Source: Pseudorhodoferax aquiterrae (lineage in GTDB: Bacteria; Pseudomonadota; Gammaproteobacteria; Burkholderiales; Burkholderiaceae_C). Taken from it: DNA of 64,000 nt. The stretch is taken from NCBI RefSeq assembly GCF_014652235.1, contig NZ_BMYK01000003.1:186001-250000 (forward strand), given 5' to 3'. The position numbers were made by a program, and so were the translations under genes. This document shows positions 1,547 through 14,786 of this stretch, in pieces (position 1 is the first letter of the stretch; every line of letters starts with the position of its first letter). The notes beneath the pieces are model-generated. The model ran no database searches, had not been told where the DNA came from, and saw only the letters and a list, made by a program, of their open reading frames with translations.

Positions 1547-3943
1547 ATGCCTTCCAAGTCTTCCCCCGGCGACACCGCCAATGCCGCCCCCTCCACGCCG
1601 CGCAGCCCGTGGGCCTGGGTCGGCCGCGCGCTGGCCTGGCTGGTGGGCATCGCGGTGGCGGGCGTCGCGGCCCTGGCGCTGATGGTGGCCATCGCCCTGG
1701 CTGTGGCCTACCCGAACCTGCCGGACATCTCCGACCTGGCGGACTACCGCCCCAAGCTGCCCTTGCGCGTGTACTCGGCCGACAACCTGCTGCTCGGCGA
1801 GTTCGGCGAGGAGCGCCGCAACCTCATGCCGATCGCCGAGATCCCCCAGGTCATGAAGGACGCCGTGCTGGCCATCGAGGACGCCCGCTTCTACGAGCAT
1901 GGCGGGGTGGATTACAAGGGCGTGGCCCGTGCGGCACTGGCCAACCTGGGCAACGTGAAGAGCCAGGGCGCCTCCACGATCACCATGCAGGTCGCGCGCA
2001 ACGTCTATCTTTCCTCCGAGAAGACCTACACACGCAAGATCTACGAGATCCTACTGACCTTCAAGCTCGAGCACCTGCTCTCCAAGGACAAGATCCTGGA
2101 GATCTACATGAACCAGATCTTCCTGGGCAACCGTGCCTATGGGTTCGCCGCCGCCTCGGAGATCTACTTCGGCCGCCCGCTCAAGGACATCACGGTGGCC
2201 CAGGCCGCCATGCTGGCCGGCCTGCCCAAGGCCCCCTCCGCCTACAACCCGATCAGCAACCCCAACCGCGCGCGCGTGCGCCAGCTCTACATCATCGACC
2301 GCATGCTGGAGAACGGCTTCATCACGGCCGCCCAGGCCCAGCAGGCCAAAAACGAGGAGCTGCGCATCCGTCCCGGCAACGAGGGTGCGCGCGTGCACGG
2401 CGAGTTCGTCGCCGAAACCGTGCGCCAGCTGATGTACGCGCAGTACGGCGACGCCACCTACACGCGCGGCCTGAACGTCTACACCACGCTCAGTTCCAGC
2501 GAGCAGATCGCGGCCTACAACGCGCTGCGCCGCGGCATCATGGACTTCGAGCGCCGCCAGATCTACCGCGGTCCCGAGAAGTTCGTGACGCTGCCGGCCG
2601 GCGGCGCCGAACTCGAAGACGCCATCGACGACGTGCTGCTGGGCCATCCGGACAACGGCGACGTGCTCTCGGCCGTGGTGCTGGAGGCCACGCCCAAGCG
2701 CATCCTCGCGGTGCGCGGCAACGGCGACGAGGTCGAGATCACGGGCGATGGCCTCAAGCCCGCGCAGTCGGGCCTGGCCGCCGCCGCGCCGCCCAACATC
2801 AAGATCCGCCGCGGTGCCGTGATCCGCACGGTCAAGACGCCCAAGAACACCTGGGAGATCACCCAGCTGCCCGAGGTCGAAGGCGCCTTCGTGGCCATGG
2901 ACCCGCGCAGCGGCGCCGTGCGCGCACTGGTGGGCGGCTTCGACTTCCAGAAGAACAAGTTCAACCACGCCACCCAGGCCTGGCGCCAGCCGGGCTCGAG
3001 CTTCAAGCCCTTCATCTATTCGGCCGCGCTGGAGAAGGGCTTCACGCCCGCCACCGTGGTCAACGACGCGCCGCTGTTCTTCGACGCGGGCTTCACCGGC
3101 GGCCAGCCCTGGGAGCCCAAGAACTACGACGGCAAGTTCGACGGCCCGATGACGCTGCGCACGGGCCTGGCCAAGTCCAAGAACATGATCTCCATCCGCG
3201 TGCTGCAGGCCGTGGGCGCCAAGAACGCGCAGGACTGGATCACGCACTTCGGCTTCGAAGCCGAGCGCCACCCGGCCTACCTGACCATGGCGCTGGGCGC
3301 GGGCTCGGTCACGCCCATGCAGATGGTGGCGGCCTACTCGGTGTTCGCCAACGGCGGCTACCGCGTCAATCCCTGGCTGATCGCCAAGGTGACCGACCAC
3401 AAGGGCCGCGTCCTCGTGGAAACCCAGCCACCGGTGCTCGACGAATCCATGCGCACCATCCCGGCGCGCAACGCCTTCGTGATGAACAGCCTGCTGAACG
3501 AGGTCACGCTGCGCGGCACGGCCGCACGCGCGCAGGCCACGCTCAAGCGCCCCGACGTGTACGGCAAGACCGGCACCACCAACGACGCCATCGACGCCTG
3601 GTTCGCCGGTTACCAGCCGACGCTGGCCGCCGTCACCTGGATCGGCTACGACCAGCCGCGCAACCTGGGTTCGCGCGAGACCGGTGGCGGCCTGTCGCTG
3701 CCGGTGTGGATCAACTTCATGGAGACCGCGCTCAAGGGCGTGCCGGTCGCGGCGCTGACACCACCGCCGGGCGTGGTCAACAGCGGCGGCGAGTGGTTCT
3801 ACGAGGAATACGCCCACAACGCCGGCGTCAACAGCCTGGGCCTGGATGCGCCGGTGCCGGGCAACAACGGCAACGGCAGCACGGTGGCCGCGCCGCCGCC
3901 AGCCGAGGAGCGCAACCGCATCCTCGACCTGTTCAGGAACTAG
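1547..3943 (+). CDS. mrcA: Penicillin-binding protein 1A (bifunctional transglycosylase/transpeptidase)
   Basis: A 798-residue class A PBP that polymerises and cross-links peptidoglycan in the periplasm. A membrane anchor lies at about residues 27-55. The glycosyltransferase-51 domain follows, with the catalytic glutamate in [12 protein letters not shown] (Glu111) and the conserved QGASTITMQ segment. The transpeptidase domain has the SxxK motif in PGSSFKPF (Ser484) and KTG in YGKTGTTND. The start chosen is the ATG at 1547; an in-frame ATG at 1487 would add 20 unlikely residues and no good ribosome binding site is visible for either. It is divergent from pilM. A close paralogue is encoded at 22329-24719. 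Confidence 0.95.
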
Positions 3944-11880: not shown

Positions 11881-12555
11881 ATGACAGCTCCCGCTCCCGC
11901 CGCCGCCGCACCGGCCCCCTCTGCCGCTGCCGTCGCCTCGGGCTGGCTGCACACCGCCCGCTTCCTGACCACGGCCCCGCAGCTGCAGTTCCTGCCCGCG
12001 CTGGAGGTGCCCGAGATCGCCTTCGTCGGCCGCTCCAACGCCGGCAAGTCCACCTGCATCAACACGCTCACGCAGCAAAAGCAGCTGGCCTTCGCCTCCA
12101 AGAAGCCGGGCCGCACCCAGCACATCAATTTGTTCGCGCTCGGCAAGCAGGGCGTCACCGACGCCGTGCTGGCCGACCTGCCCGGCTACGGCTATGCCGC
12201 CGTGCCCAAGGCCGACAAGGAGCGCTGGCAGCGCGTGATGGCCAACTACCTCGTCACGCGCGAGAACCTCAAGGGTGTGGTGCTGCTGTGCGACCCGCGC
12301 CTGGGCCTGACCGAGCTCGACGAAGTGCTGCTCGAGGTGATCCGCCCGCGCGTGGAAGAGGGCCTCAAGTTCCTGCTGCTGCTGACCAAGGCCGACAAGC
12401 TCACGCGCATGGAGGCCAGCAAGGCCCTGGCGATCGCCAAGCTCAACGCGGGCGGCGGCGAGGCCATGCTGTTCTCGGCGCTCAAGCGCCACGGCATTGA
12501 CGAGGCCAGCCAGCTGTTGTGGCGCTGGGCCCACCCTGAAGCTGCCGCTCAGTAG
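11881..12555 (+). CDS. engB: Ribosome biogenesis GTPase YihA/EngB
   Basis: A 224-residue TRAFAC-class GTPase needed for 50S subunit assembly. The G1 P-loop GRSNAGKST lies at about residues 50-58, G3 in DLPGYGYA, and G4 in TKADKL. An alanine- and proline-rich N-terminal tail precedes the GTPase domain, as in other Burkholderiales homologues. The gene is divergent from cytochrome c4, and its end overlaps the convergent acyltransferase gene by 7 bases. Confidence 0.95.
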   Translation: MTAPAPAAAAPAPSAAAVASGWLHTARFLTTAPQLQFLPALEVPEIAFVGRSNAGKSTCINTLTQQKQLAFASKKPGRTQHINLFALGKQGVTDAVLADLPGYGYAAVPKADKERWQRVMANYLVTRENLKGVVLLCDPRLGLTELDEVLLEVIRPRVEEGLKFLLLLTKADKLTRMEASKALAIAKLNAGGGEAMLFSALKRHGIDEASQLLWRWAHPEAAAQ

Positions 12556-13412
12556 ACCGGGGGCTCTCCGGGCGGGCGGGTCTTGAAGCGCTTGTGGACC
12601 CAGAAGTACTGCTCGGGCATGGTGTCGATGTAGCCCTGCAGGCGCTCGTTCATGAGCGCCGTGTCGGCCTCGGCATCCGGCCCCGGAAAGCCGTCCCAGC
12701 CCGGCAGGATCTGCACCTCGTAGCCCTCGGGCGTCAGCCGCGTGACCACGGGCACCACGCGCGCGCGGCCCAGCCGTGCGAAGCGGGCCAGCGAGGGCAC
12801 GGTGGCCGCCGGCACGCCGTAGAAGGGCACGAACACCGAGTCGCGCGCGCCGAAGTCCATGTCGGGCAGCAAGTAGATCGGCTCGCCCGCACGCAGGGCC
12901 GCCACCACCGGCTTGACGCCATCGATGCGGTTGTAGAGCTTGGCGTTGCCGAAGCGCTGGCGCCCCTGCGCCACCCAGATGTCCACGGTCTGGTTGGACT
13001 GCGGCGTGAAGATGGTCGCGAACTGCCGCGGGATCTGCTGCGACAGCGCCGTCGCCCCCGCATCCAGGCCGACGAAGTGCGGCGCGAACAGCAGCGTGGG
13101 CGCCGTGCCGGCCAGCTCGTGCAGCGCGCCCGTCATGCGCAGGCGCGCGCGTACCACCTCGGGCCGCGCGTGCCAGAGCCAGGCGCGGTCCAGCCAGGCC
13201 TGCACGAACACCACGAAATGGCGCCGCGCCAGCGCCTCGCGCTCGCGCGGCGTCAGCTGCGGGAAGCACAGCGCCAGGTTGGTCAGCGCGATGCGCCGGC
13301 GGCTGCCGACCAGCGCATAGAGCAAGCGCCCCAGCATGGCGCCCAGCGCCCGCACCCAGGCCAACGGCAGCGGCGCGAGCAAGCGCAACAGCGCAATCGC
13401 GAAACGGGTCAT
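12549..13412 (-). CDS. Lipid A biosynthesis lauroyl/acyl acyltransferase (LpxL/HtrB family)
   Basis: A 287-residue inner-membrane acyltransferase with an N-terminal hydrophobic anchor. The family's HX4D catalytic motif is HFVGLD within APHFVGLDAG, and the C-terminal FWVHKRFKTRP segment is conserved in LpxL/LpxM enzymes. These enzymes add secondary acyl chains to Kdo2-lipid IVA. The ATG at 13412 is chosen; an in-frame start eleven codons upstream (13445) would reach into the metK control region. Whether it acts as LpxL or LpxM cannot be told from sequence reading alone. Confidence 0.9.
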   Translation of the reverse strand: MTRFAIALLRLLAPLPLAWVRALGAMLGRLLYALVGSRRRIALTNLALCFPQLTPREREALARRHFVVFVQAWLDRAWLWHARPEVVRARLRMTGALHELAGTAPTLLFAPHFVGLDAGATALSQQIPRQFATIFTPQSNQTVDIWVAQGRQRFGNAKLYNRIDGVKPVVAALRAGEPIYLLPDMDFGARDSVFVPFYGVPAATVPSLARFARLGRARVVPVVTRLTPEGYEVQILPGWDGFPGPDAEADTALMNERLQGYIDTMPEQYFWVHKRFKTRPPGEPPVY

Positions 13413-13465
13413 CTCGCCAGCCGGCCGGTCAGGAGGCCATCGCACATGAGGTTCATGGGGAACGC

Positions 13466-13471
13466 TAGAAT
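13466..13471 (+). promoter_or_regulatory. -10 box of the metK promoter
   Basis: TAGAAT matches the sigma-70 consensus at five of six positions and would put the start of transcription near 13478, exactly where the proposed riboswitch P1 helix begins. No clear -35 box is seen. Confidence 0.45.
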
Positions 13472-13477
13472 CGCCGC

Positions 13478-13600
13478 GGTCGCTGAGTTATTGAACTACT
13501 TGCAGGGCGACGTTAAACACATCTGCTAAAGCGTTCGCCACGAGCTCCCGCCAGAGGCAACGCGCGACGCAACAGCCTTTTACGAAGCGAAGGAGTTTAT
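13478..13600 (+). promoter_or_regulatory. SAM-II-type riboswitch candidate and expression platform in the metK leader
   Basis: The leader folds a P1 helix GTCGC/GCGAC (13479-13483 with 13507-13511), extended by a T-G pair. The P1 loop begins GAGTTA and ends in TTGCA (13500-13504). P1 is followed by TTAAA (13513-13517) and GCTAAAG (13525-13531). The order CGCTGA...TTGCA...GCG...TAAA...GCTAAAG is what I recall for SAM-II aptamers, found mostly upstream of methionine and SAM genes in alphaproteobacteria. Unlike classic SAM-II, where the ribosome binding site is part of the aptamer, here a second hairpin follows (13531-13539 with 13556-13563). Its loop carries CTCC (13545-13548), complementary to the GGAG (13592-13595) of the metK ribosome binding site. 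SAM feedback on SAM synthetase translation is the likely role. Confidence 0.65.
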
Positions 13601-13604
13601 TCAA

Positions 13605-14786
13605 ATGGCGAACGATTTCCTCTTCACGTCCGAATCCGTCTCCGAAGGCCATCCCGACAAGGTGGCGGACCAGATCTCCGACGCCATCCTGGACGCGATC
13701 TTCGAGCAGGACCCGCGCTCGCGCGTGGCGGCCGAGACGCTGACCAACACCGGCCTCGTGGTGCTGGCCGGCGAGATCACGACCAACGCGCACGTGGACT
13801 ACATCCAGGTCGCGCGCGACACCATCAAGCGCATCGGCTACGACAACACCGACTACGGCATCGACTACAAGGGCTGCGCGGTCATGGTCTGCTACGACAA
13901 GCAGTCCAACGACATCGCCCAGGGCGTGGACCATGCCAGCGACGACCACCTGAACATCGGCGCCGGCGACCAGGGTCTGATGTTCGGCTACGCCTGCGAC
14001 GAAACGCCCGAGCTGATGCCCGCGCCCATCTACTACGCGCACCGCCTCGTGGAGCGCCAGGCCCAGTTGCGCAAGGACGGTCGCCTGCCCTTCCTGCGCC
14101 CCGACGCCAAGAGCCAGGTCACGATGCGCTACGTGGACGGCAAGCCACACTCGATCGACACCGTGGTGCTGTCCACCCAGCACCACCCCGACCAGAGCGA
14201 GACGCCGACCAAGATGAAGGCCAGCTTCACCGAAGCCATCATCGAGGAGATCATCAAGCCCGTGCTGCCCAAGGAGTGGCTGCAGGACACCAAGTACCTG
14301 ATCAATCCCACGGGCCGCTTCGTCATCGGCGGCCCGCAGGGCGATTGCGGCCTGACGGGCCGCAAGATCATCGTCGACACCTACGGCGGCGCCTGCCCGC
14401 ACGGTGGCGGCGCGTTCTCGGGCAAGGACCCGTCCAAGGTCGACCGCTCGGCCGCCTACGCCGCGCGCTACGTGGCCAAGAACATCGTCGCCGCCGGCCT
14501 GGCGCGCCAGTGCCAGATCCAGGTGGCCTACGCCATCGGCGTGGCCCGCCCCATGAACGTGACGGTCTACACCGAAGGCACGGGCGTGATCCCCGACGAC
14601 AAGATCGCCGCGCTGGTGCAGGAGCACTTCGACCTGCGTCCCAAGGGCATCATCCAGATGCTGGACCTGCTGCGCCCGATCTACCAGAAGACCGCCGCCT
14701 ACGGCCACTTCGGCCGCGAAGAGCCCGAGTTCAGCTGGGAGCAGACGGACAAGGCGGCCGTGTTGCGTGCAGCGGCCGGCCTGTAA
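13605..14786 (+). CDS. metK: S-adenosylmethionine synthetase
   Basis: A 393-residue cytoplasmic enzyme that makes SAM from methionine and ATP. Clear family motifs are SVSEGHPDK near the N-terminus, [12 protein letters not shown] (signature 1) and [20 protein letters not shown] (signature 2). The start ATG at 13605 is preceded by AGGAG (13591-13595) with a 9-base spacer. Expression is probably controlled by SAM through the structured leader described at 13478-13600. The next gene starts 12 bases after the stop. Confidence 0.97.

Follow-up and report, generated by a model that had tools for sequence, protein, structure and literature searches.

A SAM-II-like pseudoknot in betaproteobacterial metK leaders, a very probable SAM-II riboswitch variant

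Introduction

How is metK, the gene for S-adenosylmethionine synthetase, controlled in betaproteobacteria? Leyn et al. (2014, PMC4239095) sought a regulation of metK in this group and, in the part of their paper that was available, found none; the same part describes a metXZ RNA element in betaproteobacteria and places SAM_alpha only in Rhizobiales and Rhodobacterales. Passages of PMC2258182 and PMC2704228 do mention SAM-II in betaproteobacteria. (Papers given here by PMC number are cited from partial text.) The question is raised again by a stretch of 64,000 nucleotides from Pseudorhodoferax aquiterrae (contig NZ_BMYK01000003.1, positions 186,001 to 250,000), which we call the window in its full length. 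A preliminary description had placed a SAM-II-type aptamer at 13466-13533 of the window, upstream of metK, and had called the host less expected. Comparison of leaders now supports a SAM-II-type aptamer at this betaproteobacterial metK, as a subtype that stays below the gathering score of RF00521. We regard the leader RNA as a very probable SAM-II variant; as a SAM-II-like subtype at metK it is real, structurally supported and widespread in related bacteria.

Results

The locus and its standing in Rfam

The proposed target gene is confirmed: the open reading frame at 13605-14786 of the forward strand encodes an S-adenosylmethionine synthetase of 393 amino acids with the Pfam domains PF00438, PF02772 and PF02773. 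A lipid A acyltransferase gene (12549-13445; PF03279) lies divergent from the metK leader. At gathering thresholds, Rfam gives no match at this leader; the only such match in the window is a Betaproteobacteria toxic small RNA (RF02278, 45246-45307, forward strand, 62 bits). In a permissive search of 351 bases, the whole of the SAM-II model RF00521 (SAM_alpha) aligns to 13469-13550, scoring 14.7 bits (E value 0.61) where gathering requires 36. The covariance-model check that had been proposed for SAM-II thus yields a complete alignment and an insufficient score; taken by itself such a match makes a weak call, and because of it the element is easily missed by annotation. The models for SAM-V (RF01826) and SAM/SAH (RF01727), named in the same proposal, produced no match at E values up to 10 in 13350-13700. 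A match near the leader to IRES_Bip, an animal family, lies on the other strand and was taken as chance. The best weak RF00521 matches among those listed for the genome itself (G000:C2:308232 and C31:50353) were set aside, their sequences having no SAM-II core.

The picture is similar in related genomes. RF00521 exceeds its cut-off in 6 of 60 relatives, and weak matches fall on the metK leader in at least 13 of the 60, with E values of about 0.005 to 1.4. When SAM_alpha was run at E values up to 1 over 19 loci, the seven that matched were all tandem arrays, and none of the 12 metK-type loci of other families was among them. Annotation by SAM_alpha therefore misses the metK type, which is far below threshold here and goes unreported at those 12 loci.

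A pseudoknot with the topology of SAM-II

All pieces named in the preliminary description can be read from the window: the TAGAAT box, P1, CTGA (13483-13486), UUGCA (13500-13504), UUAAA (13513-13517) and GCUAAAG (13525-13531). P1, originally given as 13479-13483 with 13507-13511, is extended by the pair U13484-G13506, giving a 5' strand GTCGCT (13479-13484), whose pairs 1 and 6 change on both sides within the family, and a 3' strand GGCGAC (13506-13511) that is likewise assigned from covariation counts. The pseudoknot helix P2 was absent from that description. It pairs 13493-13496 with 13533-13536 (P2b, GAAC with GTTC) and 13502-13505 with 13523-13526 (P2a). The segment 13500-13505 holds two U, predicted to take part in U-A.U triples, and then the 5' strand of P2a, GCAG, which includes the pairs 13504-13524 and 13505-13523; the segment 13523-13531 holds the 3' strand CTGC and GCTAAAG, by the leader alignment A1 and the covariance-model alignment the predicted ligand-contact strand. 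The loop L3 (13512-13522) connects P1 to P2. The third strand, GAGTTA (13485-13490), carries a G at 13487 where the SAM_alpha consensus, in the covariance-model alignment, has U. The arrangement of P1 and P2 has the topology of SAM-II.

Conservation and covariation in metK leaders

Among 150 genomes of the window's GTDB family, metK was located in 146. We took 106 leaders (30 loci and 76 stretches), which represent 105 of these genomes, and left out the other 41 with metK; four leaders of the same genus (L041-L044) were added, which had been located via their RF00521 match, L025 was omitted (only 39 bases upstream), and L083 was placed again by hand. The core is present in 108 of 109 family leaders, or 104 of 105 excluding L041-L044, and the sole miss, L097, belongs to the second metK copy of genome G087. 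The loop from P1 to GCUAAAG is short in 66 of the 108 leaders and longer in 42; the loop inserts tend to fold (z below -1.5 in 34 of 40, mean z -2.6, against mononucleotide shuffles). UUGC and GCUAAAG are invariant in the 66 short-loop leaders of alignment A1. Loss of P1, UUGCA and GCUAAAG in relatives had been named as an outcome that would speak against the element; the core is retained.

The two helices covary. Over the 64 distinct rows of A1, P1 and P2 together consist of standard pairs to 99.8% and contain 29 cells with two-sided changes, compared with 6.2 in shuffled alignments and at most 17 with the partners slid. The number of pairs with a two-sided change is 4 against 2.7 in shuffles (15 of 500 shuffles reach 4), and the number of pair types, 9, shows no excess over shuffles (8.7; reached by 334 of 500). 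For a wider set that includes other families, a parser placed 256 of 258 leaders, 126 of them distinct, failing on L097 and on L178, which stands before metK and has GAAUUU. Pairs were counted from these parsed sequences because A2, a covariance-model alignment of 97 matches from 100 sources, puts insert-bearing elements in the wrong place. Pairs 2-6 of P1 are kept in 125 or 126 of the 126 distinct elements and the outermost pair 1 in only 96, counts that lean towards pairing because the register with the best P1 is chosen; those for P2 are unaffected. Pair 2 occurs as TA, CG, GC and AT, and pairs 3-5 are each compensated in one distinct element. In P2a, 13504-13524 is paired in 114 of 114 elements (GC 51, AT 50, GT 13) and 13505-13523 likewise in 114 of 114 (GC 108, AT 6), leaving out 12 elements that have one base fewer there. 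P2b has at least three pairs in 123 of 126, and its variants GAAC/GUUC, GAC/GUC and AGAC/GUCU replace one another, so that both partners of a pair appear or disappear at the same time. The third strand reads GAGTTA in 116 of the 126, and five carry U at the position equivalent to 13487.

A conserved -10 box in front of P1

The box TAGAAT (13466-13471) is separated by 7 nt from P1, and the predicted transcript start is at or near the base of P1, as had been suggested. Of the 108 family leaders, 107 have a TANNNT box no more than 20 nt from P1 (in 77 the distance is 6 nt), whereas none has one at a control position 120 nt farther upstream. A sigma-70 consensus scan of 13400-13650 returned no full -35/-10 promoter and no -35 consensus has been found in the window, so that the promoter call relies on the conserved -10 box. 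A promoter directly before P1 is a described feature of SAM-II (PMC1273637, available text).

Distribution and the relation to canonical SAM-II

How far does the element extend beyond the family? Genomes with a match to R1, a covariance model made from metK leaders only, number 116 (of 200) in the order, 47 (of 185) in the class and 14 (of 200) in the phylum at E values up to 0.01; canonical elements at metZ and elsewhere are among the matches. From a sample of 60 order genomes, six were left out (G041, at a contig end, and G043, G193, G194, G204 and G207). The element stands at metK in 18 of the 54 genomes examined and in 13 of the 47 families examined (50 sampled); four of the 18 come from 40 new leaders, 13 from earlier stretches, and G203 is counted solely because R1 matches it in part, 128 nt ahead of metK. 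In the remaining 36, the core was not found when some 330 bases upstream of metK were searched by pattern, a search that a strongly diverged form could escape. The exact pattern occurs in at least 120 stretches of named genomes. Among 80 listed, 77 are just upstream of metK, including records of Cupriavidus, Bordetella, Ramlibacter, Polaromonas, Thauera and Dechloromonas; of the other three, one is a tandem array (L266) and two, L209 and L222, are stretches that contain no metK. Within the 80, Ramlibacter records are the closest to the window, with 74% in the best long piece of DNA.

Canonical SAM-II elements occur in the same order, which makes the host less odd than it had seemed. In ten stretches inspected, elements precede metX-like open reading frames (L005, over the RF00521 cut-off, and L007 and L008, just under it) and metZ-like ones (L001, over it, and L010, just under), and all five have the third strand GAUUUG. 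Here and below, metX, metZ, metF, metH and MATE are names assigned on inspection or from local tblastn searches in which such reading frames served as queries. R1 in turn recognises SAM-II elements of other families that stand in front of metZ, at best with 40.2 bits and an E value of 1.6e-7. Six genomes of the window's family (G010, G012, G016, G029, G031 and G035) combine a canonical SAM_alpha match of at least 34 bits with the metK type.

Tandem arrangements were also encountered. A pattern search gave 14 arrays (L004, L144-L146, L148, L149, L152, L157, L161, L168, L266, L305, L326 and L350) composed of a canonical SAM-II, a T-rich stretch behind it in 13 of the 14, and then a core like that of the metK type; L162, L165, L167, L171 and L181 were added by eye. 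The 14 pairs fit the 44 tandem SAM-II pairs of PMC9481103, some of which, according to its available text, place a terminator first and ribosome-site control second. In L145, L148 and L162 (about 1600-3000), tandem SAM-II stands before a protein of 95-111 amino acids starting MYDC or MFDC, followed by a reading frame that by eye resembles a MATE-type transporter; in L181, two consecutive SAM-II-like elements, again by eye, from 1571 precede metF-like and then metH-like reading frames. The Burkholderia sRNA Bp2_287 (RF02424) matches below threshold and antisense over the canonical SAM-II in seven of seven cases (L144, L146, L148, L162, L167, L168 and L171), which may mean that a SAM-II leader was misread as this sRNA family. 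In L143, L147 and L150, the element-bearing metK has a SAH riboswitch downstream of it on the same strand (RF01057, 48-62 bits, above the gathering score).

Conserved strands between the aptamer and the start codon

The span first assigned, 13466-13533, contains the pieces described, and the region of interest continues past 13533 to the metK start codon. It begins with a regulatory strand R, GCGTTCGCC (13531-13539), whose GTTC at 13533-13536 is the 3' strand of P2b. R follows GCUAAA directly, as GCGUUCGC, in 107 of 108 family leaders; GCGTTCGC is present in 107 and GCGTTCGCC in 104 of the 108. The alternative partners of R are P2, the downstream strand P4' (forming the helix P4) and the start codon. 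P4', GGCAACGC (13556-13563), comprises eight bases that pair with R with one bulged C. It is conserved, being exact in 81 of 108 leaders and within one mismatch in 103, compared with 0.1 and 3.7 in shuffled tails. Between R and P4' lies an anti-Shine-Dalgarno (anti-SD) motif, AGCTCC (13543-13548; CTCC at this place in 76 of 108), and the Shine-Dalgarno (SD) sequence GGAGTT is at 13592-13597 (107 of 108 leaders have GGAG no more than 30 nt from the start). Finally, GGCGAACG (13607-13614), annotated as spanning the start codon, is complementary to 13532-13539 of R. The UCGC in the 5' strand of P1 (13480-13484) occurs again in R (13535-13539), which gives the 3' strand of P1 two possible partners.

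The complementarity of anti-SD and SD follows lineage. With 32 dissimilar leaders chosen out of 253 and zones that overlap slightly, a leader's own duplex averages -12.4 kcal/mol and swapped duplexes -9.3 (own stronger in 25 of 32, p=0.0002; no better than swapped in 7 of 32). For the R/P4 zone the values are -10.9 and -10.0 (own better in 25 of 32, p=0.008). In L343, anti-SD and SD form 14 consecutive pairs. Codon 2 of metK behaves as if the pairing of R with the start codon had been selected: GCG accounts for 87 of 98 Ala codons there and for 380 of 1215 elsewhere in the metK genes of 29 loci; at Ala second codons of other genes the count is 7 of 17 (133 crudely called genes of the same genome).

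Nearest-neighbour folding without pseudoknots gave no direction of switching from its energies. In the free ensemble, R is paired with the start codon with a probability of 0.884 and within P4 with 0.028; P4 lies 8 kcal/mol above the minimum free energy, and forcing it leaves an SD accessibility of 0.335. Over 107 leaders, this pseudoknot-free folding predicts the same SD accessibility whether the aptamer is free (0.087) or blocked (0.084), with 16 leaders lower, 24 higher and p=0.07. In transcripts ending before the SD, P4 reaches a mean probability of 0.54 and exceeds 0.5 in 56 of 105. A scan of 13400-13650 found no terminator-like site. Runs of at least five T between R and the start occur in 14 of 108 family leaders, and a terminator is therefore possible in a few relatives.

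Discussion

How might such a leader control metK? We envision that when SAM is scarce, R (13531-13539) would pair with P4' (13556-13563), and that the resulting P4 helix would keep the anti-SD (13543-13548) in its loop, leaving the SD free for the production of MetK. When SAM is plentiful, it would stabilise P2, which occupies the GTTC of R and would thereby block P4, so that the anti-SD could pair with the SD (13592-13597) and stop translation. The logic of this scheme lies in the order of the strands, which is R, anti-SD, P4', SD: P4 and the anti-SD/SD helix cross and should be mutually exclusive, and P2 takes part of R and thus excludes P4, which together would make an OFF switch. Translational OFF control by SAM-II has been described for metA of S. 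meliloti (PMC9373788, available text). We put at roughly 0.7 the probability that 13479-13536 forms a SAM-II-like H-type pseudoknot aptamer serving a SAM-responsive translational OFF switch on metK. Within this reading, we infer SAM as the ligand, an exchange of P2 and P4 that would take place in the cell, and an OFF effect on translation. Several results weigh against it: the RF00521 score, the counts of pair types and of two-sided pairs relative to shuffles, the folding figures for SD accessibility and for P4, the GCG bias at codon 2, the seven representatives whose anti-SD/SD duplex is no stronger than swapped ones, and the 36 order genomes in which the core was not found at metK.

The sign of the response could conceivably be the opposite. 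R paired with GGCGAACG and the anti-SD paired with the SD would then form one long hairpin that is OFF without ligand, because R can meet the start codon only when P2 is absent, and ligand would raise translation by drawing R into P2. We consider this unlikely, yet keep some weight on it because the pairing of R with the start prevails in the predicted free ensemble (0.884) and is favoured by the bias at codon 2 (87 of 98, against 31% elsewhere in metK). It would however place a SAM synthetase under a SAM-activated switch, which amounts to positive feedback, and it would leave P4' without a role; moreover, the anti-SD/SD helix can still form when P2 is present, and the start codons of other families, judged by eye, mostly lack a match to R. 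A leader bound by a protein such as MetK or a ribosomal factor, with no small-molecule ligand, is a far less probable way of reaching autoregulation. The strong conservation of one gene's leader cannot separate protein from ligand, but the conserved core coincides with the ligand-contact strands of SAM-II, and similar cores occupy the second place of tandem arrays in front of other genes. That the resemblance to SAM-II is mere chance, as the Rfam score below threshold might suggest, is scarcely credible given conservation and covariation across leaders.

Whether the ligand itself has changed is a related issue. A SAM-II-derived aptamer might, through G13487 and other core changes, have come to bind SAH, spermidine or methionine, for example, and the difference between GAGUUA in the metK type (116 of 126 distinct elements) and GAUUUG in the metX/metZ elements inspected points this way. 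There is a precedent in the SAM-I variants, one of them from a metK gene, that bind spermidine (PMC10853860, available text). Mapping the SAM-V contacts of PMC6061858, as far as its text goes, onto our alignment assigns to G13487 the place of the third-strand U that would touch the adenine-pairing U. The same inferred mapping argues against a change of ligand, in that the U-A.U triple residues, which discriminate SAM in SAM-V, and the A contacting the aminoacyl group appear to be kept. Furthermore, G and U seem exchangeable at this position because five metK-type elements (L086, L156, L324, L348 and L370) have U. A changed ligand is a doubtful proposition, about as probable as the opposite sign and more so than binding by a protein. 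The boldest form of this idea, which we hold with as little confidence, is that the metK type is a separate SAM-II-derived class, fixed at metK across much of Betaproteobacteria, with a pocket (G for U beside the adenine-contacting U) that might read a signal other than SAM by itself (SAH or a polyamine, for instance) and with R shared by the aptamer, the antisequestor and the start codon. The natural G/U variants at one third-strand position offer a direct test of the role of that residue in ligand choice.

If a SAM-responsive OFF switch is the right reading, the gap left for metK in the available text of PMC4239095 would be filled for nearly the whole family of the window and for several others. 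Searches of the full-text literature, in which subscription papers are thinly covered, found no description of the metK element.

How does the element compare with known systems? The metXZ RNA element of PMC4239095 is likewise a pseudoknot leader of betaproteobacteria, but by the available text it serves other genes and has a potential terminator; it is probably the canonical SAM-II seen here before metX and metZ. SAM/SAH (RF01727) is also a small pseudoknot with metK as target and a translational mode of action, yet no Rfam match exists here and the accessible part of PMC2864571 confines it to Rhodobacterales. SAM-V (RF01826) has, by published structures, a pocket close to that of SAM-II, acts on translation and, as reported in the text available from PMC9481103, lies downstream of SAM-II in tandems, as do the elements with a like core described above. 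It differs in that the metK element has the P2b stem and gives no Rfam match, and in that the SAM-V SD lies within a short helix beside P2, whereas the SD of the metK element is 56 nt farther downstream. With SAM-II (RF00521) the element has in common the H-type pseudoknot of P1 and P2, the two third-strand U, UUGC, GCUAAAG, the -10 box immediately before P1 and a gene of SAM or methionine metabolism as target. It departs from SAM-II in GAGUUA for the canonical third strand GAUUUG, in AC for GC before UUGC, in the inserts that many members carry in L3, the loop between P1 and P2, and in its metK target with an expression platform of its own, for which no terminator was found in the window. In its probable mode of working it resembles SAM-II; we file it as a variant because, under the present definition of RF00521, the score and one consensus stretch, GAUUUG, fail.
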